The translations under genes were made by a program, and so were the position numbers. Positions 3,642 through 51,295 of a DNA stretch of 64,000 nucleotides are shown one piece after another. This DNA comes from Streptomyces sp. NBC_00102 (lineage in GTDB: Bacteria > Actinomycetota > Actinomycetes > Streptomycetales > Streptomycetaceae). Every line of letters starts with the position of its first letter. Position 1 is the first letter of the stretch. The notes beneath the pieces are model-generated. The model did no database searches and was not told the DNA's origin. It saw only the letters and a list, made by a program, of their open reading frames with translations. The stretch covers positions 1 to 64,000 of the forward strand of contig NZ_JAPEMC010000005.1 in the NCBI RefSeq assembly GCF_026343115.1, in the 5' to 3' direction.

Positions 3642-3655
3642 GGTGGGGCCCCAGG

Positions 3656-6464: not shown

Positions 6465-6548
6465 GCAGAGATCCGCAGATGCGCCGATCCGCAGAGATCC
6501 GCAGAGATCTGCAGATTCGCAGAGATCCAGAGATCCCCAGAGATCCAC
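6465..6548 (+). repeat. Degenerate GCAGAGATCC tandem repeat
   Basis: The decamer GCAGAGATCC and close variants (GCGCCGATCC, GCAGAGATCT, AGAGATCCCC) recur about eight times in 84 bases in the leader between the DUF5132 gene and the ABC exporter gene. It lies outside any credible gene. It could be slippage-generated sequence or a cluster of protein-binding sites. Confidence 0.7.
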
Positions 6549-6631
6549 CCTCAGTGTTTCCCGTTCCGTCGCCGTGATCCGTCGTGTCCGAGACGGACTC
6601 CCGCGACCTCCGCAAACAGGTGAACGTACAC

Positions 6632-8950
6632 ATGCCATCGCTACTGGGTGCCGCAGCCGGATTCCGCTCCGTGGAGTCGGGTGCGAGCCCGCGCTCGGTC
6701 ATCCCGGGCCGTCAGCGCTGGGACGTCGAGCTGGTGCTCGGCCGCCCCCGGACGGCCGAGATCCTCGCCGCCGTGCTGCGCCGCATTCCCGGGATCACCG
6801 AGGCCCGGGCCAACCCGGTCACCGGCGGGGTGCTCGTCCGGCACGACGGGCGGCTGCACGCCGCGGACGTCGGCAGGATCATCCGCGGAGCAGCCACCCG
6901 GGTCGCGGAGAACGCGACCGGAGCGGGACGTCCGACCGGAGCGGGACGTCCGGCACCGGCGGCCGGCCCCACAGCCGCCTCGGCCCCGCGAGTGGACCTC
7001 GGCCCGGTCGTGCGCCCGGTGCTCGCCGTCGGCAGCGGTGTCGTGGCCGGGGCCACGCTGGTCAAGGGTTCCGCGAGAGGCAGGCAGTTGGTGGCGGCCG
7101 GCGGGGTCGCCGCGGCGACCGCGATCGTCCTGCGGAAGGCATGGCGCCAAGCGGTCGAGGCTGCCCAGCACACGACCGGGACAGGCGCGCAACGTCACCC
7201 GCTGCTGGAGATCGTCGGTCCGCACCGCCGCCGCCTCTACCGTGCCGCCGCCCTGTCCGTCGCCTGCCAGGCCGCGGAGATGGCGCTCGGTACCTTCCTC
7301 GGATGGACCGGCCTCGTCCTCATCAAGGGCGAGGCGGCCCCGCTGGCCGTCCTCGGCCTGACCACGGCCTCCGCCCAACTCCTCGGCCTGGCAGGTCTGG
7401 TGGCCGTCGCCTGCGCTGCGGTGGCCGGTCTCTCCTACGCCTCGAACCTCCAATGGCGCCGACTCGGCCAGGACATCGAGCACGACTGGCGGAGCCGCAC
7501 GTACCGGCACGTCCAGCACCTCGAACTGGGTCATCTGGAAGGCGAGCGGACCAGCCGGGTGGCCGGCACGCTCACCAACGACGTCGGCCAACTGGGCGCC
7601 TTCTTCGCCGGCCCGGCCAACGACGTGCTGCAACTCGGCACCAGCCTCGCCGTCCTGGTACCCGCGTTCCTACTGCTGGCACCGCAGATCGCCTGGATCG
7701 CGTTCCTGCCGATCCCGCTCATCGCCTGGCTCTCGCTGCGCCACCAGGGAGAGGCCGCGGCCACCTACGCCGCCACCGGCGAGCGCCGGGCCAGGCTGGG
7801 CAGCCAGGTGATCAACTCCCTGGAAGCCGGTGCGACGGTCAAGAGCTTCTGCACCGAGGACCACGAGGCGACACGCGTCGACGAGCTGAGCGAATCGGTT
7901 CAGGAGAGCAGCCGGCAGGCCGACCGGAGCACGATCCGCCACGTCGAGACCGTACGGGCCTGTACCACCGCGTCCATGGCCGGCACCCTTCTGATCGGCG
8001 GCCGGTCGGTGCTCAACGGCACCCTGCGCTTCGAGGTGTTCAGCCCGCTGATCGGACTGCCCCAGATGCTGATGATGCGGATGAGCCGCCTCGGCGGCAT
8101 CGCCGACCAGTACCAGCGCACCCTCGCGTCCTACGACCGGGTCCAGAGCCTGCGCGCCCTGCCCGTCGAGGTCGACAACGGCGACGGGACGCTCGAACTC
8201 GCCGAAGTACGGGGCGAGATCGTCCTCGACGGGGTCACCTTCGCCTACCCCGGCCGCCCGGCGACACTGGAGGATCTCTCCCTGACCATCCCGGCCGGGC
8301 AGGTGACCGCCCTGGTGGGAGCGACCGGCTCGGGCAAGACGACGATCGCCAAACTCCTGATGCGCTACCAGGACGCGGAGTCGGGCCGGGTGCTGCTCGA
8401 CGGCCAGGACGTCCGGGACCTGCGGCGGCACGACCTGCGGCACGCCGTCGGCTTCGTCGCGCAGGATCCGTTCCTCTTCGACGGCACCATCGCCGACAAC
8501 ATCCGCTACGGCACCTTCGAGGCCTCGCACGAGGACGTGGTCCGGGCCGCCGCCATGGCCGAGGCCCACGCCTTCGTCGCCACCCTGCCCGACGGCTACG
8601 ACACCCTCATCGGTGAACGCGGCACCACGCTCTCCGGCGGCCAGCGGCAGCGGATCGCCCTGGCGCGCGCGATCCTCAAGGACTCCCCGGTCGTCATCCT
8701 CGACGAGGCAACCTCCGCCGTGGACAACGAGACCGAGGCCGCCATCCAGCGCACGCTGCGCAGCTTCGCCGAGGACCGGACGATGGTCGTCATCGCTCAT
8801 CGCCTCTCCACGGTCCGCCACGCCGACCGGATCTACGTCATGGACAAGAGCGGCACCGTCGCCGAGCAAGGCACCCACGACGAACTCCTCGCCCAGCACG
8901 GGCTCTACGCATCCCTCTGGCAGCTCCAGGCCGGCGACATCGCCGCCTGA
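6632..8950 (+). CDS. ABC exporter (half-transporter) with HMA-like N-terminal domain
   Basis: The protein has 772 residues. Residues about 25-75 (WDVELVLGRPRTAEILAAVL, then GITEARANPVTGGVLVRHD) look like an HMA_2-type ferredoxin-like fold without the metal-binding CxxC. A Gly/Ala linker and one or two hydrophobic stretches follow (VRPVLAVGSGVVAGATLVKG), then a six-helix exporter domain and a nucleotide-binding domain. That domain has Walker A GATGSGKT at about 563, LSGGQRQR at about 667, Walker B VVILDEATSAVD near 687 and an H-loop in VIAHRLSTV. A GTG at 6584 in the same frame is an alternative start; the ATG at 6632 is preferred because AGGTGA lies eight bases before it. It works as a dimer. 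It precedes the NRPS gene and may export the peptide, or may pair with the DUF5132 protein in another role. Confidence 0.85.
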   Translation: MPSLLGAAAGFRSVESGASPRSVIPGRQRWDVELVLGRPRTAEILAAVLRRIPGITEARANPVTGGVLVRHDGRLHAADVGRIIRGAATRVAENATGAGRPTGAGRPAPAAGPTAASAPRVDLGPVVRPVLAVGSGVVAGATLVKGSARGRQLVAAGGVAAATAIVLRKAWRQAVEAAQHTTGTGAQRHPLLEIVGPHRRRLYRAAALSVACQAAEMALGTFLGWTGLVLIKGEAAPLAVLGLTTASAQLLGLAGLVAVACAAVAGLSYASNLQWRRLGQDIEHDWRSRTYRHVQHLELGHLEGERTSRVAGTLTNDVGQLGAFFAGPANDVLQLGTSLAVLVPAFLLLAPQIAWIAFLPIPLIAWLSLRHQGEAAATYAATGERRARLGSQVINSLEAGATVKSFCTEDHEATRVDELSESVQESSRQADRSTIRHVETVRACTTASMAGTLLIGGRSVLNGTLRFEVFSPLIGLPQMLMMRMSRLGGIADQYQRTLASYDRVQSLRALPVEVDNGDGTLELAEVRGEIVLDGVTFAYPGRPATLEDLSLTIPAGQVTALVGATGSGKTTIAKLLMRYQDAESGRVLLDGQDVRDLRRHDLRHAVGFVAQDPFLFDGTIADNIRYGTFEASHEDVVRAAAMAEAHAFVATLPDGYDTLIGERGTTLSGGQRQRIALARAILKDSPVVILDEATSAVDNETEAAIQRTLRSFAEDRTMVVIAHRLSTVRHADRIYVMDKSGTVAEQGTHDELLAQHGLYASLWQLQAGDIAA

Positions 8951-8970
8951 CCGCGGAAGCGGACCGCCCC

Positions 8971-9002
8971 CGCCGGCCACGTGACACACACCGTGGCCGG
9001 CG
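8971..9002 (+). terminator. Hairpin between the ABC exporter and NRPS genes
   Basis: There are perfect 11-bp arms (CGCCGGCCACG / CGTGGCCGGCG) with a 10-base loop, 20 bases after the exporter stop and 54 bases before the NRPS start. No U-tract follows, as is usual in actinomycetes. It may end exporter transcription or act as a partial terminator inside one transcript. Confidence 0.6.
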
Positions 9003-9056
9003 TGGGTCGGCACGCCCTGCGCGCTTCTGCCCACCCATACTTCTGGAGGTACCCCC

Positions 9057-33080
<24,024 letters not shown>

Positions 33081-33381: not shown

Positions 33382-34695
33382 ATGACCTCCACCGACACCC
33401 TGGGCGGGGCGCGCGACACCGCGGGCCCCGCCCGGCCCGAGGGCCTCGCCGTATGCCCCGTCCAGCCCGGCGATCCTGCCGCGGGTTCCGTCCGGCCCGA
33501 CGGCCTGGTCGCGGCCCTGCTCACTCCGGAAGCCCGGCGGGACCCGTACCCGCTGTACGCCCGCATGCGGCGCGAGGATCCGGTCCACCGCAGCCCGCAG
33601 GGCATCTGGTACCTCACCCGCCACGCCGACGTCGAGGCGGCCCTCGGCGACCTGCGGCTGTCCAACGACCGGGACAGGATGACCCGCGCCTACAGCTCGC
33701 TCGGCGGCGACCTCAAAGCCCTCAGCCGGCTCACCGAACGACTCGGCCGGGTGATGAGCAACACCGACCCGCCGGACCACGCCCGGCTGCGCAAGCTGGC
33801 CAACAAGGCGTTCACCGCCCGTCGCGTCGAAGCCCTGCGCGGGGGCGTACAACGGATCGTCGACCGGCTCATCGACGAGGCGGTCGCGGCCGGCCCGGCC
33901 ATGGAGCTCATCGAGGCGGTCGCCTCGCCCCTGCCGATGTCCGTCGTCTGCGAACTCTTCGGGATCCCCGACGAGGACCGACCTCAGGTCAAGAGCTGGT
34001 TCAGCCGATTCGGCCGGCTCAGCGAGGACATCGACAAGTCCGAGGAGGCGATCGACGGTTACGAGGAGTACCTCTCCGGGCTCATCCGCCGGCGCCGGCG
34101 CGAACCGGGCGACGACCTGATCAGTGCCCTGGTCGCCACCCAGACCAAGGACGACCGGCTCACCGACTCCGAACTGCTGTCCACCTGCTTCGTCCTGATC
34201 ACCGCCGGGGACGAGACCACCACCCAGCTGATCGCCAACGGCATGCTCGCCCTGCTGCGCAACCCGGACCAACTGGCCGCGCTGCGCGCGGATCCGGACC
34301 TGATCCGCGGCGCGGTCGAGGAACTGGCCCGCTACGACACGGTGACCCAGGCGATCGTCCGGGTGGTGGCGGAGGACCTGGAGATCGGCGGACGGACGCT
34401 GCGGGAGGGCGAGTTGGTGTACCTGTTCCTCGGCGCGACCAACCGCGACCCCGAACGCTTCGAGAACCCCGACCGGCTCGACCTGTCCCGCCCCGGCAAC
34501 CGCCACCTGAGCTTCGGCCACGGCCCGCACTTCTGCCTCGGCGGCCCGCTGGCCAAGCTCCAGGCGGAGGTGGCGATCGGCACGCTCGTGCGCCGGCTGC
34601 CCGGACTCCGCCTGGCCGACGGGGAGCCCCTGGAGTGGCGGGACAACCCGCTGCAACGGCGGTTGGCCGCCCTCCCGCTCATCCACCGACCGTGA
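33382..34695 (+). CDS. Cytochrome P450 of the NRPS operon
   Basis: The protein has 437 residues and is a soluble bacterial class P450. The I-helix has AGDETTT (residues 275-281), the ExxR helix lies in the EELARYD region, and the heme loop is FGHGPHFCLG with the ligand Cys at 385. The N-terminal 40 residues are extra, low in complexity and probably disordered; several internal in-frame starts exist, so the true N-terminus is uncertain. Position in the operon implies a tailoring step: hydroxylation, or oxidative cross-linking of the adjacent Phe5 and N-methyl-Tyr6 side chains. Which of these cannot be told from sequence. A ferredoxin partner is not encoded nearby. Confidence 0.92.
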   Translation: MTSTDTLGGARDTAGPARPEGLAVCPVQPGDPAAGSVRPDGLVAALLTPEARRDPYPLYARMRREDPVHRSPQGIWYLTRHADVEAALGDLRLSNDRDRMTRAYSSLGGDLKALSRLTERLGRVMSNTDPPDHARLRKLANKAFTARRVEALRGGVQRIVDRLIDEAVAAGPAMELIEAVASPLPMSVVCELFGIPDEDRPQVKSWFSRFGRLSEDIDKSEEAIDGYEEYLSGLIRRRRREPGDDLISALVATQTKDDRLTDSELLSTCFVLITAGDETTTQLIANGMLALLRNPDQLAALRADPDLIRGAVEELARYDTVTQAIVRVVAEDLEIGGRTLREGELVYLFLGATNRDPERFENPDRLDLSRPGNRHLSFGHGPHFCLGGPLAKLQAEVAIGTLVRRLPGLRLADGEPLEWRDNPLQRRLAALPLIHRP

Positions 34696-36542: not shown

Positions 36543-37154
36543 GTGGGTCGTGACGGTGAGACTGGACCGGGCAGGCGCCCGGGTTCCGGCGGTGGCCGGT
36601 CTGAGGAGCAGGCGTGGCTCGACGGGCTGCTCACGCGCGCCGCCGACGGGGACGAGAAGGCATTCGTCGAGGTGTACGACGCCCTGGCGAAGCCGGTGAT
36701 GGGACTGGTCTGCCGGGTGCTGAGGGACGAGGCGCAGGCGGAGGAGGTGACCCAGGAAGTCATGGTGGAGGTGTGGCGCACCGCGTACCGTTTCCGTCCT
36801 GAGCGGGGAGCCGCCCGCAGCTGGGTGCTGACCCTCGCGCACCGGCGCGCGGTGGACCGGGTACGGTCCGTCGCGGCGGCGAGGGCCCGCGAGATGAGAG
36901 TCGGCGTCCGGGACCAGGACCTGCCGTTCGACGCGGTCGCCGAAGAGGTCGAGAAGCGGGAAGAACACCGGGTGCTCTTCCGCTGCCTCGGTGAACTCGC
37001 AGGTCAGCTGCGGTTGCCCCTGGTCCTCGCCTACTACGAAGGCCTGACGTACGCCGAAGTGGCGGACTCCCTGGCTTCCCCCCACGGGACGATCAAGTCG
37101 CGGATGCGCCACGGCCTGCACTCCCTGCGCGAGTGCCTGGGAACAAGATCATGA
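36543..37154 (+). CDS. ECF sigma factor, SigK-like
   Basis: The protein has 203 residues. Region 2 spans about residues 40-105 (VYDALAKPVMGLVCRVLRD, then EEVTQEVMVEVWRTAYRF). Region 4 is near the C-terminus, with the helix-turn-helix LTYAEVADSLASPHGTIKSRM. It starts at GTG 36543 with GAGGAG five bases upstream. The gene overlaps the following anti-sigma gene by ATGA, the normal arrangement for SigK/RskA pairs. It would direct RNA polymerase to stress or envelope promoters when released by its partner. Nothing in the sequence ties it to the flanking biosynthetic operons. Confidence 0.9.
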   Translation: MGRDGETGPGRRPGSGGGRSEEQAWLDGLLTRAADGDEKAFVEVYDALAKPVMGLVCRVLRDEAQAEEVTQEVMVEVWRTAYRFRPERGAARSWVLTLAHRRAVDRVRSVAAARAREMRVGVRDQDLPFDAVAEEVEKREEHRVLFRCLGELAGQLRLPLVLAYYEGLTYAEVADSLASPHGTIKSRMRHGLHSLRECLGTRS

Positions 37155-37927
37155 CTACGAGACCCGGCGACGACCCGCACCTCGATGTAGGTGCGTACGT
37201 GCTGCACGCCCTGCCGCCCGACGAGGAGGCCGCCTTCGAGAACCATCTGGCGGGCTGCCCGGCCTGCCGACGGGAGGTGGAGGAGCTGGCCGCCACGGCT
37301 GGCCTGCTGGGGGAGGCCGTCGAGGCCCGCGCACCGTCGCCGGAGGTGCGCCGCCGGGTGCTCCGGCAGATCTCCGGCACACAGCAGGACCGGCCCGCTC
37401 CCGTCGCGGTGGTGCATCGCTACCGGCGCCGCCTGCGGGCGATGGCCGTGTCGCTCGCGGCGTCGGCCGTGGCGGCGGCGGTGCTGGGCGGCGTCGCCTG
37501 GAGGCAGAGCTCGGAAGCCGACACCGCCCGCGCGCAAGCCGATACCGCCCGCGAGCAGGTCGCGGAGGCCCAGGACGGTGCCCAGGCCCTCGCCGGTGTC
37601 GTCGCGGCTCCCGATGCCACGATCAGAGCCGAGCAGCTCCCGCAGGGGGCGACGGCCAGTGTGATCACCTCGCGGTCGCAGAACCAGGCCGCCTTCGTCG
37701 CGTCCGGCCTGCGGCCCCTCACCGACGGCCGGGTCTACGAACTCTGGTACGCCGACGGCGAGCGGTTCCGGCCGGCCGGACTGCTGTCCGGCGACGGCGG
37801 CAGCCAGGCGCACGTCCTGCAGGGTCCGCTCAAGGGCGCCACGGCCGTGGGCATCACCGTGGAGCCCGCCGGTGGATCGCGGCAGCCGACCACTCCTCCC
37901 CTCGGCCTCGTCGGCATCTCTTCCTGA
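37151..37927 (+). CDS. Anti-sigma factor, RskA family
   Basis: The protein has 258 residues. A cytoplasmic anti-sigma domain with the zinc-finger-like HLAGCPAC motif lies near residues 35-42. One transmembrane helix follows (around AMAVSLAASAVAAAVLGGVAW), then a short coiled segment with Ala/Gln heptads and an extracytoplasmic RskA domain (VYELWYADGERFRPAGLLSG). ATG 37151 overlaps the sigma stop. It would hold the SigK-like factor at the membrane until proteolysis or a redox signal frees it. Confidence 0.9.
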   Translation: MTTRPGDDPHLDVGAYVLHALPPDEEAAFENHLAGCPACRREVEELAATAGLLGEAVEARAPSPEVRRRVLRQISGTQQDRPAPVAVVHRYRRRLRAMAVSLAASAVAAAVLGGVAWRQSSEADTARAQADTAREQVAEAQDGAQALAGVVAAPDATIRAEQLPQGATASVITSRSQNQAAFVASGLRPLTDGRVYELWYADGERFRPAGLLSGDGGSQAHVLQGPLKGATAVGITVEPAGGSRQPTTPPLGLVGISS

Positions 37928-37984: not shown

Positions 37985-39004
37985 TCAGCGGACCAGCCCG
38001 TCGGCCGTGTCGGGCTCGCGGGCGGAGGGCGGCCCACTGGACGCTTCCTGCGGGACGAGCGCCTCGTCGCCGTAGAGGGCCTGTACCCAGTTGGTCTGGT
38101 AGACCGTGTCGAGGTAGCGCTCGCCGAGGTCCGGTGCGATCGCCACCGTGGTGAGGTCCCGCTCTCCGTGCCGGGCGAGCCAGTCCGTCGCTCCCCTGAC
38201 CACGGTTCCGGTGGAGCCCCCGAAGAGAAAGCCGCGCCTGGCGAGAGCCCGGCAGGTACGTATGCTGTCGGCCTCCTCGACGCGTACCGCCTCGTCGACG
38301 TACGTCTCGTCGAGCAGCGGAGGGCGCATGCTCATGCCCAGCCCGGGGATCATACGGCGGCCCGGGGGCCCGCCGAAGATGGCCGAACCGACGCTGTCCA
38401 CGGCCACGATGTGCACCGGCCGGTGCGCGTCGCGGAACCAGCGCGCGCAGCCCATCAGCGTGCCCGTGGTACCGACCCCGACGAACAGGACGTCCAGTCG
38501 CGGAAAACGGTGGGCGATGGCCGGCGCGGTTCGGAAGTAGTGCGCCTTCCAGTTGTCGGCGTTGGTGTACTGGCTCAGCCACACGTGGCGGTCGTCCGCC
38601 GCGCACAGACTCCGTACGTGCGCGAGCCGGGCGCCCAGCAGGCCGCCGGAGGCGTGCTCGTCGGAGACGACGTGGACCTGGCTGCCGAGGGCTTCCATCA
38701 TCAGACGCGTGGTCAGGTTGCAGCGCGAGTCGGTCACGCAGATGAAGCGGTAGCCCTTGCCTGCCGCGATCATGCTCAGGGCGACGCCGAGATTGCCGGA
38801 GGACGATTCGACCAGGACGGATTCGGGCGTCAGGGTCCCGTTGCGTTCGGCGGATTCGACCATTTCGGTGGCGGCCTTCAGTTTGATCGAACCGGCGAAG
38901 TTGAACCCCTCGCACTTGAGGAAGAGCCGGTGGCCGACCATCGATGCGAGGTCGACGTAGAGGTCCTCCTCGTTGAAGGCCTCGGGGACGGAGATGACGG
39001 GCAC
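37985..39004 (-). CDS. sbnA: SbnA-like N-(2-amino-2-carboxyethyl)-L-glutamate synthase (PLP enzyme)
   Basis: The protein has 339 residues of the cysteine synthase fold. The PLP lysine is K41 in GSIKLK. ESSSGNLGVALS is the substrate-binding Asn loop, VGTTGTLMG is the phosphate-binding glycine loop, and FGGSTGTVV lies near the C-terminus. In the Sbn pathway this enzyme joins O-phospho-L-serine and L-glutamate to make ACEGA, the precursor of L-2,3-diaminopropionate. The assignment over plain cysteine synthase rests on the adjacent SbnB-like gene and the SbnA-like motif SIKLK in place of the usual SVKDR. It starts at GTG 39004 with GAGGAG upstream. It is the last gene of the five-gene Dap operon. 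Confidence 0.85.
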   Translation of the reverse strand: MPVISVPEAFNEEDLYVDLASMVGHRLFLKCEGFNFAGSIKLKAATEMVESAERNGTLTPESVLVESSSGNLGVALSMIAAGKGYRFICVTDSRCNLTTRLMMEALGSQVHVVSDEHASGGLLGARLAHVRSLCAADDRHVWLSQYTNADNWKAHYFRTAPAIAHRFPRLDVLFVGVGTTGTLMGCARWFRDAHRPVHIVAVDSVGSAIFGGPPGRRMIPGLGMSMRPPLLDETYVDEAVRVEEADSIRTCRALARRGFLFGGSTGTVVRGATDWLARHGERDLTTVAIAPDLGERYLDTVYQTNWVQALYGDEALVPQEASSGPPSAREPDTADGLVR

Positions 39005-39045
39005 GATGTCTCCTCGGTGGCTGCGGACGGTGGACGCCGGTGGCC

Positions 39046-40116
39046 TCAGCCGTACCGGCTCAGTTCGTGGAAGAAGTCGTCGACGGTCCGGAGTTCTCCG
39101 GCGCCGGCCACCTCGTCGTAGACGTACTTGCCGACCGCGAGGTCGAGCACGCCCAGGCCGAACGGGGAGAAGATCACCGGCCGGTCGGGCGGTACCGTCA
39201 CCCGCCCTGCCATCACGTCGTCGAGCGTGCCGAGCAGGAAGTCGCGGTTTCCGGTGAGCCGTTCGGTGAGATGGGGGGAGGTGGAAGCACGCAGGCAGTG
39301 CTCGACGTCGTCGACGACGTTGGTGGCACCGAGCAGGACCTGCGGTGCGAGGTCGCGCAACGACACGTGCAGCACCACCGGGTTGTGGCCGAACCAGGAC
39401 GGTTCGTCCACGTGGGGCCGGTCCGCCACGGTGGCGAAGACGATCAGATCGCTCTGGCGGACGAGCTCTTCGGCGCTCCGGTGCACGGTCACACGGCCGA
39501 CCGCTCCGGACTGTTCCAGGTAGGCCCGGAAGCCGGCCGCGCTGTCGGGGGACACGTCGTGCACCCCGATGGCGTCGAAGGACCAGCCGGTTCCTTCGAG
39601 ATAGGTGTGGATGTAGCGGGCGATCAGGCCGGTGCCGACGAATCCGAGCCGGGTGGGACGCGGCCGCCCACTGCTGAGCCGGTCGGCGGCGGACGCTGCG
39701 GACGCGGCGGTCCGGGCGGCGCTGATGATCGAGCTCTCCATGCAGGCGAAGGGATAGCCCGTGGCGTAGTCGTTGAGGATGAGCACGGCGGACGCCCGGG
39801 GAATGCCGGCTGTGACGTTGGTGGGGAAGCTGGAGATCCATTTGAGGCCGTCCACCGGGTTCTCGCCGCCCAGGGAGGCGGGCAGCGCGATGATCCGGGA
39901 CGTCGGCCGGTCGCGGAAGCGCAGGAAGGAGGACGGGGGGTTGACCGACTGAAGGGCGCCGTGCAGGCGATAGGTCTCCTCCACGACTTCCACCACGGTC
40001 TTCTCCCTTCCCCGGAGCACCTCCTCGACCTTGGCGCCCGGGATGACGGCGAAGGGCGGGACGGCCGGAGCGCTCGCGGGCGCGGCCGTGTCCGGAGCGG
40101 TGTTCACGGTGGTCAT
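39046..40116 (-). CDS. sbnB: SbnB-like N-((2S)-2-amino-2-carboxyethyl)-L-glutamate dehydrogenase
   Basis: The protein has 356 residues of the ornithine cyclodeaminase/mu-crystallin family. The substrate half carries DGLKWISSFPTN. A Rossmann nucleotide-binding motif follows (RLGFVGTGLIARYIH), then the conserved FSPFGLGVLDLAV near the end. SbnB oxidatively cleaves ACEGA with NAD to L-2,3-diaminopropionate, 2-oxoglutarate and ammonium or its equivalent. The start overlaps the stop of the dioxygenase gene (ATGA) and the gene is followed by the SbnA-like gene after 41 bases. Together the pair is the known route to L-Dap. Confidence 0.88.
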   Translation of the reverse strand: MTTVNTAPDTAAPASAPAVPPFAVIPGAKVEEVLRGREKTVVEVVEETYRLHGALQSVNPPSSFLRFRDRPTSRIIALPASLGGENPVDGLKWISSFPTNVTAGIPRASAVLILNDYATGYPFACMESSIISAARTAASAASAADRLSSGRPRPTRLGFVGTGLIARYIHTYLEGTGWSFDAIGVHDVSPDSAAGFRAYLEQSGAVGRVTVHRSAEELVRQSDLIVFATVADRPHVDEPSWFGHNPVVLHVSLRDLAPQVLLGATNVVDDVEHCLRASTSPHLTERLTGNRDFLLGTLDDVMAGRVTVPPDRPVIFSPFGLGVLDLAVGKYVYDEVAGAGELRTVDDFFHELSRYG

Positions 40117-41159
40117 GCGGCTGCCCTCCCGGGATTCGGTGCGAGCCGGGGGGAGCGGGCGGGGGAGAGGGAGACGGGGTCTCCCATCCCGACCACGACG
40201 GCCCGTGGGCCCTCGTACGCTTCCCGGCTGTGCGCGGTGCGGATGTTGTCGACGAGCGTCAGCTCACCGGTTCGCCAGGGCCGGCGCACGGTGTGTGCCG
40301 CGTACGCCTCGTTGATGAGCTCGACCACGTCGGGGGAGACGGGGTCGCCGTTGCCGTAGCGGGTGTTGAAGGGAAGGTTGTCGGAGCCGTACTCCGCGAC
40401 GAGGAATTCCCGCACCTCGGGGGCGAGGGTCCACTCGTTGAGGAAGGCGATCTGGTTGAACCAGCAGGGACGCCCCGAGAGCGGATGGCCCACCACGGCG
40501 CTCCGGTGCTGCCGGGTGTGCAGCGATCCGTCCGCCTGCCAGGAGCGGTCGATGCCGTGGTCGCGGCAGTACGCGTCGATGGCGTCGTGGTCGTCGGTAC
40601 CGAAGGACTGGTGCAGAGTGGCGCCGATCTCGCCGTTGTACGAGCGCGTCAGGAGCCAGCCCTGCCGCTCGAAGCGTGCGACCAACTCCGTGGGCAGTTC
40701 CGCCAGTACGGCGGTCGAGTCGGCGAGGGCCGTGGCGCCACCCTCGGAAGGCTCCTGGAGGCACGCGAAGAGGAGAAGGCCCGGGCACGGGGTGGTGTAA
40801 CTCAGCTCGTGGTGCATGCACATGGGCTGGTTGGGAGGCCAGGCCGAGGACGAGTGGAGGCCCTCTGCGTACGTGTCCCGGGGGGCGAAGGCCTCGCGTT
40901 CGGTCACGGGACGATCCGTCAAGCGGTGGAAGACCGGCTCGACATCCTCCGGAGTGCGCAGGCCGAGGCCGCGGACCGTGACCGCGCCGTGTTCGGCGAC
41001 CAGGCCGCGCAGCGTTCGCCGGTGACCGGCCGCCCAGGCAGCCGGATCCGGGGCGCCTTGCGCGTCGAGTACCGGTGGACCTTCGGGGAGCGCCGATACG
41101 GTGGCGGGGGCGGCCGGCGGGGCGTCGGCCGGGGTTCTGCGGAACAGTGCGGACAGCAT
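40113..41159 (-). CDS. Fe(II)/2-oxoglutarate-dependent dioxygenase (TauD/SyrP-like)
   Basis: The protein has 348 residues. The iron triad is visible: H116-x-E118 in MHHELSY and the distal His in DNIRTAHSREAYEGPR, whose Arg is the usual 2-oxoglutarate ligand. It resembles the SyrP/clavaminate-synthase-like branch that hydroxylates amino acids, often while tethered to a carrier protein. It sits inside the Dap operon, 35 bases after the A-T gene and overlapping the SbnB-like gene by four bases, so the substrate is probably Dap-S-carrier or the Dap product. Beta-hydroxylation of Dap itself would give an unstable carbinolamine, so another position, desaturation, or another substrate must be considered. 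Confidence 0.85.
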   Translation of the reverse strand: MLSALFRRTPADAPPAAPATVSALPEGPPVLDAQGAPDPAAWAAGHRRTLRGLVAEHGAVTVRGLGLRTPEDVEPVFHRLTDRPVTEREAFAPRDTYAEGLHSSSAWPPNQPMCMHHELSYTTPCPGLLLFACLQEPSEGGATALADSTAVLAELPTELVARFERQGWLLTRSYNGEIGATLHQSFGTDDHDAIDAYCRDHGIDRSWQADGSLHTRQHRSAVVGHPLSGRPCWFNQIAFLNEWTLAPEVREFLVAEYGSDNLPFNTRYGNGDPVSPDVVELINEAYAAHTVRRPWRTGELTLVDNIRTAHSREAYEGPRAVVVGMGDPVSLSPARSPRLAPNPGRAAA

Positions 41160-41194
41160 GGCGTACTCCTCGGACGTGTCGTTTCGCGGGAACT

Positions 41195-43711
41195 TCAGGT
41201 CTGCGTCGTGCGGACGGGCGAGCCGGGTGCCGGCGGTGGCTGCGCGAGGCCGGTCGCGCCTTCGCCCCGGGCGTCCATCAGCTCTGCCAGGGCGGCGGGC
41301 GTCGGACGCGCGGTGAGATCGCGCAGGGAAACCGTCCGGCCCAGACCGGCCAGCAGGCGGACGGCCGAAAGGGAGGTGCCTCCCAGGTCGAAGAAGTCGT
41401 CCCGCCGCCCGATCTGCCCGGCCGGTCTGCCGAGCGCGGTCGCCCAGGCCGCGACGAGCCGTCGCTCGGTAGGGGTGCGCGGAGGACGGCAGGCGTCTTC
41501 GGCCGTGACGCGTTCTTCGGCGAGCGCCGTCAGCGCCTTCCGGTCGGTCTTCCCGGTGGCGGTGAGCGGGAGATCCTCCAGGTGGCGGAAGGAGCCGGGG
41601 ACCATGTAGGCGGGCAGCAGTTCTCCGAGCCCGCGGCGCAGGTACTCCTCGTCCGCGGCGGCCGGGCCGGTGCAGAAGGCGATGAGCCGGGCGTGGTTCT
41701 CCGGTCCCGCCACCACGACGGCGCCGTCACGGACGCCGGGTATGCGCGGCAGCGTGTTCTCGATCTCTCCGAGCTCTATGCGGAAGCCGCGAATCTTCAC
41801 CTGCGTGTCCCGGCGGCCCAGGAACTCCAGCTTCCCGTCGGGCAGCCAGCGCCCCGTGTCGCCGCTCCGGAAGAGGCGTCGGCCGGGGTCGTAGGGGTCG
41901 GTCGTGTAGGCGAGGCGGGTGCGCTCGGCGTCGTTGACGTAGCCGCGGCCGACGCAGACTCCGGAGAAGACGATCGCACCCGGGGCTCCCAGGGGAACCG
42001 GCACCAGCTGGTCGTCGACCACGAGGACGCGCACGTTGTTCACGGGGCGGCCGAGCGGAACCCGGCCGGTGACGGGGGCCTCGTGCATCACCTCGTGGTT
42101 GGTGTCGTCGGACGTCTCGGTCAGGCCGTAGGCGTTGACCAGAGGCACACCGGGTCCGGTGGCGAACCATCTTTCGGCGAGCTCGCTCTTGAGCGTCTCC
42201 CCGGTGACCGACACGCACCTCAGGCCGGACAGCGCCCGAGGGCAGCGCGCGAGCGCGGTGAGGACGACGTCCAGATACGAGGGCACCACCTGGAGGACGG
42301 TGACGCCTCCCTCGGAGACCGTGGCCAGGAATCGGCCGGTGTCGAGAACCGTCGCCCGGTCGACCAGCAGAGTGCGTCCGCCGGTCGCCAGCGCGGCGAG
42401 CAGCTGCCACAACGAGATGTCGAAGCACTGCGAAGCGGTCTGCGCCACGACGCTGTCCTCGTCGATGCGCAGGTCGTCGATCTTGGCGAAGAGGTGGTTG
42501 AGCAAGCCCTCGTGCTCGCACATGGCGCCCTTGGGTTCTCCGGTGGAGCCGGAGGTGAAGAACACGTAGGCGAGTTGGTCCGCCCCGACCTCGACGCCGG
42601 GGGAACTGTCGTCTCCCGGCCGGTCGGTGACGTCCGGCACGAGGAGCCTGTGGGTGCCGGGAAGCCGGGCGAGCGCGCGGTCCAGGTTCGTGCCACTGTC
42701 CGGGTCGGTGAGCACGTGGGTGCAAGCCGCGCGGCTGAGCACGGTGGTCATCCGTCCCGGAGGGCACTCGGGGTCGACCGGCAGATAGGCCCCGCCCGCC
42801 TTGAAGACGGCGAGCACGGCGGCCGCCCAGCCCAGGCCGCGCCCGGTCACCACGGCGACGACGTCCTCGGCGCGCAGCCCCTGGGCGAGGAGCGCGTGGG
42901 CCAGTCGGTTGGCCCGTACGTCGAGTTCCCGGTACGTCCACGACCGGTCACCGTGGACGATCGCCACGGTGTCCGGATGCCTCCTCGCCCGTTCTTCGAA
43001 CAGTTCGTGGAAGCGGCGGTCCGGGAGCGGGCGGTGCCGACCGGCGAGGGTGTCGAGCTGATGGCGGATCTCCTCCTCGGACACCAAGGTGGCTCGTTCG
43101 TGCGGGGCGTCGGGATCGGTGGCGATCCGTTCGAGAGCGGTGAGGTGGTAGCCGCTGATCCGGGCGGCGTGGTCCGCGTCCATCACGTCGGTCCGGTAGC
43201 GCAGGCGCAGAGCGGTCCTCCCGTCGTCCTCCCCTGCGGCGACGGAGAGGACGGTGCCGTCGTCGCGGCGAAGGGCAGGGGGCTCCCGGCCGGTCGGTTC
43301 GAACACCACTTCCGGGCGCGGGCTGGACGGAGGTGGGGGAGTGGCGGAGAGAGCAGCCGTCCGCGCCCATGCTGTGGCCGACACCAGGTCGCGCCAACTG
43401 CCTGAAGGGACCGCCATCTCCAGGATCAGAGGCGCGACGCCGGCCCGGGGCCGGAACCCGCTGCGTACGACGGGGTCGGCCGAGAGCACGGCCAGTACCT
43501 TCGCGTGCGCGGCCAGGAACACCGTGGTGAGCGGCACACCGAGTTCTCCGGCCCGCCGGCGCAGGAGCGCCTCCGTGCGCTCGGGCAGGAGAGCGGTCGC
43601 CTCCGCCGTGCCGGGCAGGGGGTTCGTGGCCCATCGCGGGACGGTGGTGCAACAGCCCTCGGCAGGGACAGCCGGTGCTGGGACGTGTCCGTCGGTCCTG
43701 ATCGTCGTCAT
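41195..43711 (-). CDS. NRPS-like protein: partial C, A and T domains; predicted Dap/Dab-activating
   Basis: The protein has 838 residues. The first 230 or so look like the C-terminal half of a condensation domain (PLTTVFLAAHAKVLAVLSAD; RLRYRTDVMDADHAARISGY). The half bearing HHxxxDG is missing. An adenylation domain follows, with FTSGSTGEPKG and FDISLWQL (D431, I432, W435). Pocket DIWQSTADD shares seven of nine residues with the published diaminobutyrate code DIWELTADD. A carrier domain ends the protein, with Ser780 in GGTSL. Given the Dap-forming neighbours, L-2,3-diaminopropionate is the expected substrate. It overlaps the upstream membrane synthetase gene by four bases (ATGA), so the two proteins should be made together. 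Confidence 0.88.
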   Translation of the reverse strand: MTTIRTDGHVPAPAVPAEGCCTTVPRWATNPLPGTAEATALLPERTEALLRRRAGELGVPLTTVFLAAHAKVLAVLSADPVVRSGFRPRAGVAPLILEMAVPSGSWRDLVSATAWARTAALSATPPPPSSPRPEVVFEPTGREPPALRRDDGTVLSVAAGEDDGRTALRLRYRTDVMDADHAARISGYHLTALERIATDPDAPHERATLVSEEEIRHQLDTLAGRHRPLPDRRFHELFEERARRHPDTVAIVHGDRSWTYRELDVRANRLAHALLAQGLRAEDVVAVVTGRGLGWAAAVLAVFKAGGAYLPVDPECPPGRMTTVLSRAACTHVLTDPDSGTNLDRALARLPGTHRLLVPDVTDRPGDDSSPGVEVGADQLAYVFFTSGSTGEPKGAMCEHEGLLNHLFAKIDDLRIDEDSVVAQTASQCFDISLWQLLAALATGGRTLLVDRATVLDTGRFLATVSEGGVTVLQVVPSYLDVVLTALARCPRALSGLRCVSVTGETLKSELAERWFATGPGVPLVNAYGLTETSDDTNHEVMHEAPVTGRVPLGRPVNNVRVLVVDDQLVPVPLGAPGAIVFSGVCVGRGYVNDAERTRLAYTTDPYDPGRRLFRSGDTGRWLPDGKLEFLGRRDTQVKIRGFRIELGEIENTLPRIPGVRDGAVVVAGPENHARLIAFCTGPAAADEEYLRRGLGELLPAYMVPGSFRHLEDLPLTATGKTDRKALTALAEERVTAEDACRPPRTPTERRLVAAWATALGRPAGQIGRRDDFFDLGGTSLSAVRLLAGLGRTVSLRDLTARPTPAALAELMDARGEGATGLAQPPPAPGSPVRTTQT

Positions 43712-46266
43712 CGTTGTTCGCCTCCAATGCCGTCGGACACCGGGCGAGCCGGATTCCCCGCCCAGCGGGCGTGTTCGGGAACGGTCTCGCCCTTCATCAG
43801 GAAGGAGTCCGCTTCCAGTTCGGCCCCGTCCGAGACCGTCACGCCGTAGTGCACGAGCGCTCCGACCCCGAGCGTGCACCCGGAGCCGAGCACACTGCGG
43901 TCGGACTTGAACGCGCCGTCCTCCTGCGAGTGGCACTGCACGACGCTGCCCGCGTTGAGCGTGCAGCCGTCCCCGATGGTGACCATGGCGCGCTCCGTCA
44001 GACCGCAACCGTCGTCGAAGACCCGGGAACCGATACGCACACCGAGCAGGCGCCACACGACGTTCTTGAAGGGGGTGCCGTTGAGGACCTGCAGATACGT
44101 CTCGGACGGGACCTTCCAGTACCGCTCCCGGTGCCAGAAGCGCCGGTCGTAGATCGAGCAGAACAGCGGACCCGGGGGGTGCAGGGCCGTCACGATCCGT
44201 TCGACCAGGACGAAGTAGAGGAAGGTGAAAGGCAGTACGACGGCGTTGGCCGCGGCGATCACCACCGTCCCCCACTGCGGATACAGGCTCGCCGCAGCCG
44301 CGTACATCGCGGTGACGAGGAAGAAGTACAGCCACCCGGTGAAGAGGTACGCCGCCATCGACACGGCGTTGTGCCGGGCCTTTGCCGTCAGGCGCCGACG
44401 CAGCCCGTCGCCCTCCGCCGATTCGTCGAAGGCGCTGTCACGCAGCACCGACCGGGGGATCTCGAAAGGGGGGGATCCGAGCAGTCCGACGTCGTGCCTG
44501 AGCGGGCCGTCCACCGGGACCATGACCTTCGTCGCCAGGAGACAGTTGTCACCGGTTCTGCCGCCCGGGGGATAAGCGATCCGGTTGCCCAGGAAGTTGT
44601 GTGCGCCGATCGAGGTGGCCGACAGTCGGAACGAGGTGCTGGAGTACTCCGCGTTCATCAGGGAGAGACCGTCCGCGACCATGGTGCCGGTGCCCACCCT
44701 GCTCAGGAAGGGGCTCTCGTGCTTGACCCGGGTGCCGAAGTTCGAACCGGTCTGCTCCACCCGGGAGAGGTCGTACCCGATCCTGCGGAGGTAGTGCGTG
44801 ATGAACGCGCTGTCGCCGAACAGTCTGGTCAGGGAGTTCCGGTTGGTGAGCAGCGCGGTCGCCCGGTGAGCTGCGTGGTGGAGTCCGAACAGCGGATAGG
44901 TCCGCCCGGGCTTCACGAGGGCGCCGAGCACGCGGGGGAGCGTGGCCATCACGACCAGGGCGGCGACCACGGCACCGGAGAAGGCGACGGCGGTGGCCGC
45001 CAGTACGTCGGCGTACAGCGTCCAGCTCGTCGCCGCGGTCTGCCCCCGGTCCAACAGGGTGGATCCCGCCAGGATCCGGGAGAGCAGGACGTCAAGGGCC
45101 CCCACCATCAGCGGCACGTACACCGTCAGCATCATGAGCAGCAGGCCGGCCCCGGCGGCGACCCGCCTGGCGGTGCCGCACCGGACGGGCCCCACCGTCC
45201 GGAATTCGGTGTCGGTGGCCCGGGCCGGCGAGCCGTGCCAGTGCTCGCCGTCCGGTACCGCCTGTCCGGTGTGCAGCGAGGACGCGTGGCCGAGCTGGGA
45301 TCCGTCACCGAGCGAGGTGCCGATGTCGAGCACCGTCGCCTCGCAGACGACCACGTCGCGCCCCATGACGACGGGTCCCGTCTCGATCATCCCGTCGCGT
45401 GCGCGGTAGCAGCTGACGAGTGAGTCCTTGCGGACCACCGTGCCGTCGCCGATCACCAGGAGATCCGAACAGACAGGCACGGTACGGGACAGGAACGTCA
45501 CTCCCCGACCGATGTGCGCGCCCAGGGCCCGCAGATAGAGCGGGTAGAGGGGGGAACCCACGAACAGAACCATCGGGCTCGACCTGATGAGCGCCTTGAC
45601 CAGCCAGAATCGGACGTACGCGAGACTCCAGACGGGAAACCGCCGGGGCGTCCACCTGCCCACCAGCAACCACTTGGCGACGACCGGCAGGGCACACAGG
45701 AGGACGAGCAGTACGGCTCCGAACACGACCGACCGCAGATAGGAGTCGGGCAGAGTGGCTCCCGCGGAGATCCAGTCGTAGCCGCGGGACGTGACGACGG
45801 CGAGGAGAAGGGCGTACCCGAGGAAGCCCAGCAGCTGGAGCGCGCCGCACACCGCCACACGACGGCGGGTCGTCCGGACCGCCGGTTCCGGGACCGGCGG
45901 ATCGGTCGGCTCCTCGGGCGAAGCGGCCGGGACCGGTCCTTCCCGCACGGGTGCTCGCGGTGCGGTCTCCGCGAGCGACAGGGCCAGGCCCCGGATGGTC
46001 GGACAGCGGTAGACGTCGCGCATCGACACCGGTGGCAGATGGGGACGCTTCCTGACACGGGCGCAGAAGTGCGCCATGACCAGGGAGTCGGCTCCCAAGT
46101 CGTTGAAGAAGTCACTGTCGGGGGTTACTTCCTCCACCTCGGCCACGTCCGCGAGCACTCCGGCGAGTTCCTTCTCCGTGCCGGAGAGCGCGGGGGCCGC
46201 GACCATCGGTCGGTCGTGGGTGACGGGAGGCCCGGTGCTCGTCGCGTCGAGTCGCTGTGCCGTCAT
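43708..46266 (-). CDS. Carrier protein fused to Pls-type NRPS terminal domain (membrane, three LbH units)
   Basis: The protein has 852 residues. A carrier domain comes first (Ser61 in DLGADSL). Then two transmembrane helices precede a left-handed beta-helix of the acyltransferase type (GVTFLSRTVPVCSDLLVIGD region). This pattern repeats twice more, giving six predicted helices in all; the third unit contains ERAMVTIGDGCTLNAGSVVQ. This is the layout of the C-terminal part of epsilon-poly-lysine synthetase (Pls) and of the NRPS terminal domain family. In Pls the tandem C1-C3 units join free amino acids onto a chain without a thioesterase. Here the A domain is on the next protein, so the synthetase is split. 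It starts at ATG 46266 with GAAGGAG upstream and is the first gene of the operon. Confidence 0.87.
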   Translation of the reverse strand: MTAQRLDATSTGPPVTHDRPMVAAPALSGTEKELAGVLADVAEVEEVTPDSDFFNDLGADSLVMAHFCARVRKRPHLPPVSMRDVYRCPTIRGLALSLAETAPRAPVREGPVPAASPEEPTDPPVPEPAVRTTRRRVAVCGALQLLGFLGYALLLAVVTSRGYDWISAGATLPDSYLRSVVFGAVLLVLLCALPVVAKWLLVGRWTPRRFPVWSLAYVRFWLVKALIRSSPMVLFVGSPLYPLYLRALGAHIGRGVTFLSRTVPVCSDLLVIGDGTVVRKDSLVSCYRARDGMIETGPVVMGRDVVVCEATVLDIGTSLGDGSQLGHASSLHTGQAVPDGEHWHGSPARATDTEFRTVGPVRCGTARRVAAGAGLLLMMLTVYVPLMVGALDVLLSRILAGSTLLDRGQTAATSWTLYADVLAATAVAFSGAVVAALVVMATLPRVLGALVKPGRTYPLFGLHHAAHRATALLTNRNSLTRLFGDSAFITHYLRRIGYDLSRVEQTGSNFGTRVKHESPFLSRVGTGTMVADGLSLMNAEYSSTSFRLSATSIGAHNFLGNRIAYPPGGRTGDNCLLATKVMVPVDGPLRHDVGLLGSPPFEIPRSVLRDSAFDESAEGDGLRRRLTAKARHNAVSMAAYLFTGWLYFFLVTAMYAAAASLYPQWGTVVIAAANAVVLPFTFLYFVLVERIVTALHPPGPLFCSIYDRRFWHRERYWKVPSETYLQVLNGTPFKNVVWRLLGVRIGSRVFDDGCGLTERAMVTIGDGCTLNAGSVVQCHSQEDGAFKSDRSVLGSGCTLGVGALVHYGVTVSDGAELEADSFLMKGETVPEHARWAGNPARPVSDGIGGEQR

Positions 46267-48790: not shown

Positions 48791-48927
48791 GGGTGGATGG
48801 TCCGTGGGGTCGTGCATCCCGCCCGGGCCGCGGTTCGCCCGGGCGTCGTACCACCGCACTTCCACCGAGCCGCACGCTCAGGACGAGAGCCGTGCGGTGT
48901 ATCCCCGTCAGGAACCGAGGTACTTCC

Positions 48928-49896
48928 ATGCGTCTCTTCTCCCGAGCGATGACGGCAGCGCTCGTTGCCCTGCCGTTGGCCCTCGTGGTCTCTACGCCCG
49001 CGCAGGCTGCTGACCCGACCACGCTGACGAGCGGCTTCTACGTAGACCCCAACTCCAGTCCGGCCCTGTGGGCCGCGGCCAACCCCGGTGACGGGCGAGC
49101 GCCCGCAATCCGCGACAGCGTCGCAGCGAAGCCGATGGCCCGCTGGTTCGGCAACTGGAGCGGCACCATAGGGACGGCTACCGGCGCCTACGTCGGCGCG
49201 GCCGACGCCGCGGACAAGCTGCCCGTCCTCGTGGCCTACAACATCCCCAACCGCGACATATGCGGAGGGCAGTCCGGCGGCGGGGCAGGCTCCGTCGCCG
49301 CCTACAACACGTGGATAGCCGCATTCGCGGACGGAATCGGCTCCAGGCCCGCCGTCGTCATCCTCGAACCGGACGCGCTCGGGGACACCAGTTGCATGAC
49401 GGCCGCCCAGATCGCCGAACGCAACTCCCTGCTCAACAATGCGATCACCCAATTCAACCAGAAGGCCCCCAACACCTGGGTCTACCTCGACGCCGGCAAC
49501 CCGGGCTGGCGCAGCGCCACATCGATGGCCGCGAGCCTGAACGCAGCAGGTCTCAGCCGCACCCGAGGCTTCTCGCTGAACGTCTCCAACCACTACACCA
49601 CCGCGGAGAACATCACTTACGCCAACGCGGTCAACGCCGCACTGAGTTCGTCCAACGGGTACAGCAAGCCGTTCGTCGTGGACACCAGCCGCAACGGCAA
49701 CGGCTCCACCAACGGTGAATGGTGCAACTCGGCGGGCCGCAGGATCGGAACGCCCACCCAGAAGGGCGGAGGTGCGGAGATGCTCCTGTGGATCAAGACC
49801 CCCGGTGAGTCCGACGGCAACTGCGGCGTCGGAGCCGGGTCCGTGGCGGGCCAGTTCCTCCCCGAGGTCGCCTACAAGATGATCTACGGCTACTGA
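48928..49896 (+). CDS. Secreted GH6 cellulase (endoglucanase-like)
   Basis: The protein has 322 residues. A Sec signal peptide ends with TPAQA (cleavage after residue 27). The mature protein starts FYVDPNSSPALWAA, a GH6 hallmark. Catalytic-region residues are D110 in RDICGGQSGGG and the acid D149 in VVILEPDALG, followed by YLDAGNPGW and FSLNVSNHY. The fold is complete, but there is no cellulose-binding module or linker. GH6 enzymes cut beta-1,4-glucan with inversion. The gene lies under the tandem CebR boxes and is followed by a strong terminator. Confidence 0.93.
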   Translation: MRLFSRAMTAALVALPLALVVSTPAQAADPTTLTSGFYVDPNSSPALWAAANPGDGRAPAIRDSVAAKPMARWFGNWSGTIGTATGAYVGAADAADKLPVLVAYNIPNRDICGGQSGGGAGSVAAYNTWIAAFADGIGSRPAVVILEPDALGDTSCMTAAQIAERNSLLNNAITQFNQKAPNTWVYLDAGNPGWRSATSMAASLNAAGLSRTRGFSLNVSNHYTTAENITYANAVNAALSSSNGYSKPFVVDTSRNGNGSTNGEWCNSAGRRIGTPTQKGGGAEMLLWIKTPGESDGNCGVGAGSVAGQFLPEVAYKMIYGY

Positions 49897-50014: not shown

Positions 50015-51295
50015 ATGCGTTCCCTTACGTTCCGGCGCCGCACAGCCGTCGTCACCGCGGCGCTCACCGCCTTCGCGGCGTTCGCCGCCACGGCTGCCCA
50101 GGCCGCACCCGCTCCCGCGCGGGGCACAGTCACCCCGGCCACGAAGTTCTACGTGGACCCGAACAGCAAGGCGGCCCGGCAGGCCATCGAGGACCTGAGG
50201 GGAGGAAAGATCGAAGACGGCCTGAACATGGTGAAGTTGGCGAGTTACCCGCAGGCCGCGTGGTTCACGGGGGGCACGCCCACCGAAGCCCGCACCGGCG
50301 TACGCAAGCTCGTCCGTGCCGCCGCGGTCACCCGCCGGGTACCGGTCCTGGTGGCGTACGACATCCCCGGCCGGGACTGCAGCCTCTACTCCAGCGGCGG
50401 GGCCGACTCCTCCGCCGCCTACCGCCGGTGGATCGACGCGTTCGCCCAGGGCATCGGCAGCGACCAGGCCGTGGTCATTCTGGAACCCGACAGCCTGGCC
50501 GCCCTTCCCAAGGACTGCGCCGGGGACATCGACCCGACCGGAGAGCTCACCACCCGCCGCACGGAAGACCTCGACTACGCGGTCCGCGCTCTGAAGAGCG
50601 GCGCGAACACCACGGTCTATCTGGACGCGGGCAACAGCCAGTGGCGATCCGTCGGAGACATCACACAGCGGCTCCTGGACGCCGGCGTCGAAGAGAGCGA
50701 CGGCTTCGTCCTGAACATATCCAACTACCAGCCCACGGATCAGACGTCGCGCTACGGGACCTGGATATCCAAGTGCCTGTGGTTCGCCACCGAGGGGCCG
50801 GAATGGTCACGTGGCCACGCCGACTGGTGCGCCGGCCAGTTCTACTCCCCGGCCGCTCCCAACGACGGAACCCCGGGCAACGCCGTCTCCTCCACCGACC
50901 CCTCCACCTGGCACTGGACCGACACCTGGTACGACCAGAACGTGGGCAGTCCCGCCGACGAGGATCTGGCGCACTTCACGATCGACACCAGCCGCAACGG
51001 AAAGGGGCCGTGGACCCCGCAGCCGGGTAAGTACAGTGGCGACCCGGAGACGTGGTGCAATCCGCCCGGACGTGGCATGGGCCCTCGCCCGACCGTCGAC
51101 ACCGGTGTCCCGCTCGTGGACGCCTACCTCTACGTGAAGACCATCGGTGAATCCGACGGCAGCTGCACCCGCAACACCGGCGGCACGATCGACCCCGAGT
51201 ACGGCGTCGTCGACCCTGCCGCCGGAGTCTGGTGGCCCGGACAAGCACATGAACTCGCGCGCAACGCGGAACCACGCCTGACGCTCAACCACTGA
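50015..51295 (+). CDS. Second secreted GH6 family glycoside hydrolase
   Basis: The protein has 426 residues with a Sec signal peptide (RRRTAVVTAALTAFAAFAAT, ending near AAQAA). The GH6 core is clear: FYVDPNSKAARQA, GRDCSLYSSGGADSS, VVILEPDSLAALP, YLDAGNSQW and LNISNYQ. It is about 100 residues longer than the first enzyme, mainly from an insertion containing WISKCLWFATEGPEW and WHWTDTWYDQNVG. Such insertions alter the active-site loops, so the two enzymes may differ in mode of attack. No binding module. RBS CAGGAG precedes ATG 50015. A terminator lies between the two cellulase genes, so this one may depend on readthrough or its own promoter. Confidence 0.92.
   Translation: MRSLTFRRRTAVVTAALTAFAAFAATAAQAAPAPARGTVTPATKFYVDPNSKAARQAIEDLRGGKIEDGLNMVKLASYPQAAWFTGGTPTEARTGVRKLVRAAAVTRRVPVLVAYDIPGRDCSLYSSGGADSSAAYRRWIDAFAQGIGSDQAVVILEPDSLAALPKDCAGDIDPTGELTTRRTEDLDYAVRALKSGANTTVYLDAGNSQWRSVGDITQRLLDAGVEESDGFVLNISNYQPTDQTSRYGTWISKCLWFATEGPEWSRGHADWCAGQFYSPAAPNDGTPGNAVSSTDPSTWHWTDTWYDQNVGSPADEDLAHFTIDTSRNGKGPWTPQPGKYSGDPETWCNPPGRGMGPRPTVDTGVPLVDAYLYVKTIGESDGSCTRNTGGTIDPEYGVVDPAAGVWWPGQAHELARNAEPRLTLNH

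Follow-up and report, generated by a model that had tools for sequence, protein, structure and literature searches.

What product is made by an operon in which a membrane protein of the Pls/PosA type, a separate amino acid-activating protein, an oxygenase and two candidate enzymes of diaminopropionic acid (Dap) synthesis are encoded side by side? This question is raised by five genes on the minus strand, running from 46266 to 37985, in a 64,000-nucleotide stretch (the window) of Streptomyces sp. NBC_00102, which is the start of contig 5 in a genome of 8.6 Mb in 12 contigs. By combining family scores, structure models and comparisons of related loci, we suggest with moderate confidence that the operon encodes a split, oxygenase-equipped relative of the poly-Dap (PDAP) polymer synthetases that makes an oxidized short cationic Dap oligomer or polymer. 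That these genes form a real, widespread and coherent unit with the gene content given here is well supported.

Composition and conservation of the operon

The five genes, in the order in which they are read, are the following.

43708..46266, minus strand: membrane protein of 852 residues, Pls/PosA terminal family (TIGR02353, PP-binding, structure model)
41195..43711, minus strand: protein of 838 residues with adenylation (A) and carrier (T) domains, the A-T protein (condensation (C)-domain remnant, A domain with the code DIWQSTADDK, carrier motif GGTSL)
40113..41159, minus strand: TauD/TfdA-type Fe(II)/2-oxoglutarate (2OG) oxygenase of 348 residues (PF02668, fold)
39046..40116, minus strand: SbnB-like dehydrogenase of 356 residues (TIGR03944)
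37985..39004, minus strand: SbnA-like pyridoxal phosphate (PLP) enzyme of 339 residues from a GTG start (TIGR03945, motif GSIK)

The stop of the membrane protein gene and the start of the A-T gene share an ATGA overlap (43711-43708), as do the oxygenase and SbnB genes (40116-40113); the A-T and oxygenase genes are separated by 35 nt, and SbnB and SbnA by 41 nt, assuming that SbnA starts at the GTG at 39004, which was picked from the reading frame. These two overlaps and two gaps make a single transcript likely. The original prediction, made from the sequence alone, had described this order on one strand with tight spacing or ATGA overlaps, and a synthetase split into two proteins with two carrier domains and an added oxygenase; the coordinates bear out the former, and the family scores and gene layout the latter. 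The G+C content of the window lies between 67 and 75% in 2-kb steps.

The membrane protein scores 715.8 bits against TIGR02353, the Pls/PosA terminal family (cut-off 423.1), covering model positions 1-695 of 695, and it is the only protein in this genome above that cut-off. Its carrier (residues 33-95) scores 38.9 bits with PP-binding (cut-off 20.8), and the carrier serine, Ser61, is invariant in 31 aligned rows. In the predicted structure (mean predicted local distance difference test score, pLDDT, 74.5) the carrier is followed by three repeats of a helix pair (134-167/172-201, 365-403/415-448 and 620-665/667-695) and a beta-helix, and the best PDB matches are hexapeptide acyltransferases. 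The model thus has the T-TM-C1-TM-C2-TM-C3 layout (TM, transmembrane), in which C1-C3 are beta-helices. Both the membership in the Pls terminal family and this layout had been anticipated; a simple hydropathy scan alone gives five of the six helices clearly, the first helix of the third pair falling below the threshold. Pls and PosA likewise have a carrier followed by three TM pairs with C1-C3 and belong to TIGR02353, but differ in carrying their own A domain on a single protein (PMC10522769; this and the other published systems are compared here as their titles, abstracts and passages describe them).

The SbnB-like protein scores 409.5 bits with the equivalog model TIGR03944 (cut-off 326.9) and the SbnA-like protein 379.5 bits with TIGR03945 (cut-off 349.95). 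Given that the cysK model gives 182.3 bits on the SbnA-like protein (cut-off 350.95) and that the cyclodeaminase models likewise stay under their cut-offs, an ordinary cysteine synthase with an ordinary cyclodeaminase is ruled out, and the assignment of the pair to the Dap type stands as first proposed. The PLP-lysine motif GSIK of the SbnA-like protein recurs as GS[IVM]K in all 38 loci with an SbnA match.

The oxygenase scores 139.1 bits with PF02668 (TauD; cut-off 27), and the closest folds to its model (pLDDT 80.3) are At3g21360 and TauD. The metal triad HxD/E...H and the 2OG-binding arginine are in place: H116, E118, H310 and R319 are invariant in the 31 aligned rows, which fits an active Fe/2OG enzyme. 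A relative at E up to 1e-60 is present in 148 of 295 Streptomyces genomes, and two relatives (P0181, P0234) carry the source name AmbD. S. noursei has a relative with 64% identity (P0188). S. albulus, the PDAP producer, we take to be close to S. noursei, and its NjxA/NjxB pair may therefore belong to an operon of this type. Relatives of 52-58% identity also occur without a TIGR02353 gene nearby (G026, G080, G085:C123, G017, G049:C1:289665, G127 and others); several of these have an internal stop in the matched stretch and are possibly decaying or part of a different cluster.

Scanning genome contigs, we found the membrane protein at 46 loci, of which 38 also encode the A-T protein and the oxygenase, one (L027) is fused and seven are standalone. 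All five genes lie in the order of the window and on one strand in 36 of those 38 loci; L044, a Chloroflexota record, has another gene order and no SbnB in its stretch. Identities to the window over the aligned parts are 54-80% for the membrane protein, 46-67% for the A-T protein, 59-72% for the oxygenase, 62-85% for SbnB and 70-89% for SbnA. The nearest related loci carry Streptomyces names, and other hosts are Actinomadura and two metagenome bins named Acidimicrobiia and Ktedonobacteraceae.

Among 150 Streptomyces genomes (taken as handles G000-G149, which all listed handles fit, 49 genomes without a match being unlisted), 81 have a TIGR02353 match. When the 117 listed matches are sorted by open-frame length, 58 have fewer than 1150 residues and are counted as split, whereas the 59 longer ones are counted as fused, frame length being a rough sorter and a few matches lying at contig ends or being broken. 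On the same strand and at most 12 kb away, an oxygenase relative with an identity of at least about 50% accompanies 49 of the 58 split-form membrane proteins compared with one of the 59 long-frame ones. A split membrane protein with the oxygenase nearby is present in 44 of the 150 genomes, a count of this gene pair rather than of all five genes. The unit is therefore common in Streptomyces, and it is seemingly self-contained in its five genes.

The single long-frame match with an oxygenase, L090 (G105, frame 2164-9144 on the minus strand), encodes 2327 residues in which the membrane domain, a partial C domain, the A and T domains and the oxygenase are joined, and SbnB and SbnA genes follow next to it; its A-domain code is that of the window. 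Moreover, 15 of 120 listed A-T homologues contain an oxygenase domain, two of these 15 also having a thioesterase (TE) domain; P0050, P0057 and P0112 are the A-T/oxygenase fusions that were inspected. These gene fusions provide the best evidence that the oxygenase, the A-T protein and the membrane domain share one pathway, and, together with the gene linkage, they are grounds for suggesting that the oxygenase acts on a carrier-bound amino acid.

The activating domain and the descent of the synthetase

The A-T protein scores 268.2 bits with AMP-binding (cut-off 29.9) and 43.4 bits, above cut-off, with PP-binding. Its N-terminal part matches only positions 392-453 of 456 of the C-domain family PF00668 (20.9 bits, below the cut-off of 30.6), and the motif HHxxxDG is absent from this part of the best A-T frame in all 38 operon loci, some of these frames being incomplete. 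As the remnant is too short and lacks HHxxxDG, condensation by the A-T protein is hardly possible. The carrier motif GGTSL is found in the A-T protein of 34 of the 38 loci and could not be resolved in the other four.

The pocket code of the A domain is DIWQSTADDK, and its motifs are identical in related A domains wherever they are readable, all ten positions having been read by alignment for the window and L090. In the literature searched (mostly titles, abstracts and passages, with few subscription journals) this exact code was not found, and only a code for diaminobutyric acid (Dab) surfaced: DVWQMIGDDK is given as a code for Dab and connected with the beta-OH form, and two Dap codes are reported to be 80% like Dab codes (PMC12283262). 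The window's code has six of ten residues (D, W, Q, D, D, K) in common with it. With Dap synthases predicted from the same operon, the A domain is likely to take Dap as its substrate; Dab is possible too.

The original prediction that the pocket fits a short diamino acid is consistent with these comparisons; the kind of pocket is another matter. At position 239 the window has W, the residue of an ordinary nonribosomal peptide synthetase (NRPS) pocket, whereas all 14 aligned fused A-T-membrane relatives have E, and the A domain is only 32-35% identical to those of the fused synthetases. It also stands on a separate polypeptide from the membrane domain, unlike in Pls, PosA and the PDAP synthetases. 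A pocket of the ordinary NRPS kind means that the operon does not simply encode a PDAP synthetase cut in two, and a split PDAP synthetase and nothing more is therefore ruled out.

The membrane protein has different affinities. It is 52% identical to the fused proteins L081 and L084 and 57% identical to L027, all three of which have the pocket DFECLSVVTK, and a Phe at the second code place (position 236) is that of PDAP and poly-Dab synthetases (PMC10522769). In contrast, it is only 26-31% identical to eleven fused proteins with DAESIGTVVK, the Pls-like lysine type, alanine at the second place being the kind found in the lysine pocket (PMC10522769). A tree, rooted by midpoint only, separates the DFECLSVVTK and DAESIGTVVK groups with support of 100/100. 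Judging from the 32-35% identity of the A domains, W239 and the 52-57% identity of the membrane domain, the operon apparently combines a membrane domain of the PDAP type with A and T domains that descend from ordinary NRPSs.

We also considered a single origin of the split form, which is ruled out: with the split label on 27 rows, the L090 fusion and L094 included, the tree needs five changes, at least four of which are forced by supported branches, and the split forms are interspersed with membrane proteins that stand alone and with a single fused protein of the PDAP type. These label changes suggest gain and loss rather than one clean event.

Among the closest published systems is the PDAP synthetase of S. 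albulus PD-1, for which Dap comes from a cysteine-synthase-like and cyclodeaminase-like pair, NjxA/NjxB, and whose membrane domain, with C1-C3, is of the kind seen here (PMC4668381). The nearest fused relatives of the window's membrane protein have the PDAP-type pocket; the comparison was made with these and not with the S. albulus sequence itself. The PDAP synthetase differs in being a single protein with A domain, carrier and membrane domain, the genes for Dap synthesis lie away from pdaps, and no oxygenase is mentioned in the passages of that paper (PMC4668381). In vitro, NjxA/NjxB make Dap from Ser and Orn and not from phosphoserine and Glu (PMC4668381).

A proposed route to an oxidized Dap product and its alternatives

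Combining the gene content with the domain assignments, we suggest that the operon would function as follows: (i) SbnA and SbnB would make L-Dap, with 2-oxoglutarate as a by-product if they act as in S. aureus, (ii) the A domain would activate Dap and load its own carrier and probably, in trans, also the carrier of the membrane protein, (iii) the TauD-type enzyme would oxidize Dap on a carrier, and (iv) the membrane protein, with its carrier beside three beta-helix domains, would form the amide bonds between units. The product would be a short cationic Dap oligomer or polymer in which some or all units are oxidized. In this scheme we infer the substrates of the A domain and the oxygenase, the position and outcome of the oxidation, the polymerization and the order of the steps. 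A second carrier makes sense if one carrier is the site of tailoring and the other the site of condensation.

Single steps of this route have counterparts elsewhere. The TauD/TfdA-type enzymes SyrP and AmbC/AmbD act on carrier-bound amino acids; their substrates are Asp and Glu, unlike the Dap proposed here, and we know of no polymer synthetase beside them. In capreomycin biosynthesis one Dap-specific A domain serves two carriers, one of them in trans (CmnA-A1/CmnI), yet within a multimodular NRPS line with C domains and with no membrane domain described in the passages of that source (PMC12400406). Sulfazecin biosynthesis similarly combines Dap genes with a Dap A domain and a TE (SulG/SulH/SulM), and includes a later two-step methoxylation by SulO and SulP; it differs in having a sulfotransferase and a beta-lactam-forming TE (PMC11298585), and the operon in the window contains no such genes. 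In S. scabies, an SbnB relative near sbnA and an NRPS gene is among the proteins seen with potato tubers (PMC11479980). The SCO6431 region of S. coelicolor was compared as a possible relative and proved uninformative, and a search on the NAPAA cluster of S. venezuelae yielded no detail on its genes.

A number of observations weigh against the proposed route. Because the A domain is unlike those of Pls, PosA and PDAP synthetases (W239), the polymer logic of these systems may not carry over. As for the chemistry, beta-hydroxylated Dap would be an unstable aminal unless its beta nitrogen were acylated; oxidation at the beta carbon would give a stable product only with this nitrogen acylated, for example in an isopeptide chain, and would otherwise be expected to collapse to a carbonyl or enamine. 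The genes also occur apart. L030 is without SbnA and SbnB even though 5 kb of its contig remains; nine of the 58 split membrane proteins lack an oxygenase in the 12 kb around them; of 68 oxygenase places, 50 have a TIGR02353 gene nearby and 18 do not, some of these cases being at contig ends or in other arrangements; and in L094 (G012) the membrane protein and A-T protein occur together without the oxygenase. Furthermore, ten carrier-membrane proteins that stand alone (L016, L019, L022, L034, L041, L042, L043, L091, L092 and L093; 53-59% identical) fall on the same side of the tree as the window's protein. The sequence retrieved around them contained neither an A-T gene nor an oxygenase gene, and the membrane domain may therefore have other roles; L043 has an SbnA relative about 8 kb away. 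Finally, a thioesterase motif follows the carrier of the A-T protein in 16 of the 38 loci, a feature that would allow a monomer or short oligomer to be released on this branch.

Such release is the core of a small-molecule pathway, in which Dap oxidized on the carrier in the manner of 2-amino-4-methoxy-trans-3-butenoic acid (AMB) or syringomycin would leave as a monomer or dimer and the membrane protein would make one amide bond or move the product. Besides the thioesterase branch, the oxygenase domains in 15 of the 120 A-T homologues, the AmbD source names of P0181 and P0234 and the presence of two separate carriers argue for it. However, the window's own A-T protein has no thioesterase motif. 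Furthermore, the membrane domain, whose nearest relatives are fused synthetases of the PDAP type, has been retained in the unit and in L090 is even fused to it. We consider this pathway unlikely.

Alternatively, the operon may make ordinary PDAP with a single oxidized cap, the oxygenase acting on the starter or end unit only or serving something else. The proximity of the membrane domain to PDAP-type synthetases would be explained in this way, and one of the two carriers could hold a special starter. However, the fused PDAP-type relatives have an A domain of another type, and the fusions of the oxygenase with the sole A-T unit point to the loaded monomer as the substrate of this enzyme; capped PDAP therefore appears improbable to us. 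In a mixed peptide, Dap would instead be the free acceptor, and the A domain would load Dab, Ser or a beta-hydroxy amino acid. This alternative draws on a code read by analogy only, on the partial match to the published Dab code and on the occurrence of W239 and D331 in Ser pockets as well, but is very improbable given that two acidic pocket residues suit a second amine, that 36 of the 38 loci have SbnA as well as SbnB and that no other amino acid-making family recurs in the flanks.

We therefore favor the oxidized Dap oligomer or polymer. A broader idea, which we raise tentatively, is that the operon stands for a class of polymer not described in the literature searched: oligo- or poly-Dap whose carrier-bound monomers are oxidized by a dedicated 2OG oxygenase before they are linked by a membrane beta-helix domain, encoded in about three in ten Streptomyces species. 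Such a system would have arisen by the pairing of a membrane domain of the PDAP type with an A-T unit from an NRPS and by the acquisition of the oxygenase. In the literature searched, mostly as titles, abstracts and passages, we found no description of a Pls-type synthetase that is split and accompanied by both Dap synthesis genes and an oxygenase. According to PMC10522769, six homopolymers of diamino substrates are known besides the one presented there; the homopolymer synthetases it describes are single proteins, and it models the membrane domain of Pls and PosA and calls for experimental support. With its separate A-T protein and two carriers, and with the L090 fusion, the system described here provides pieces with which amide-bond formation by the membrane beta-helix domain, an open question for Pls and PosA, could be tested.

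Possible regulators and neighboring genes

Convergent with the operon lie two overlapping genes.

36543..37154, plus strand: SigK-like extracytoplasmic function (ECF) sigma factor, with homologues in the flanks of related loci
37133..37927, plus strand: RskA-like anti-sigma factor, overlapping the sigma factor gene

A SigK-like gene is near the operon in 16 of the 38 loci by direct search (13 by family count). Its orientation varies, and it was not found at any of the 16 loci with the thioesterase motif, contig ends truncating some of the flanks of the 38 loci. Among the 150 genomes, the two closest relatives of the RskA-like protein (G129 and G112, 60-61% identity) lie within 8 kb of a membrane protein gene; the next five (52-54%; G025, G024, G095 twice and G087) are not near one. 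The pair may be a dedicated regulator of one branch of the operon. Apart from SigK/RskA, no further gene family was found in the flanks of five or more of the 38 loci, where genes were called by a simple rule of G+C by position, so that some may be missed, and where contig ends cut some flanks.

No iron-box-like site with up to three mismatches occurs in the window, by which an iron-regulated siderophore pathway was rejected; this is a weak test with a single consensus.

On the other side of the SigK/RskA pair, a giant NRPS of 8007 residues (9057-33080, plus strand) contains seven carrier motifs, six HHxxxDG motifs, six A domains by one motif, whose codes were read, and a seventh visible by eye in the translation, together with a methyltransferase-like stretch and a thioesterase-like end; it is followed by a P450-like gene (33382-34695). 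The operon as part of a cluster of this NRPS is ruled out, as the five genes are kept together elsewhere, a P450 (30-50% identity) is present in only four of the 38 loci and, SigK/RskA apart, no flanking gene family recurs in five or more of them; the queries of this comparison did not include the giant NRPS. Beyond the other end of the operon lie two secreted glucanase-like genes on the plus strand (48793-49896 and 50015-51295), judged from their translations only.

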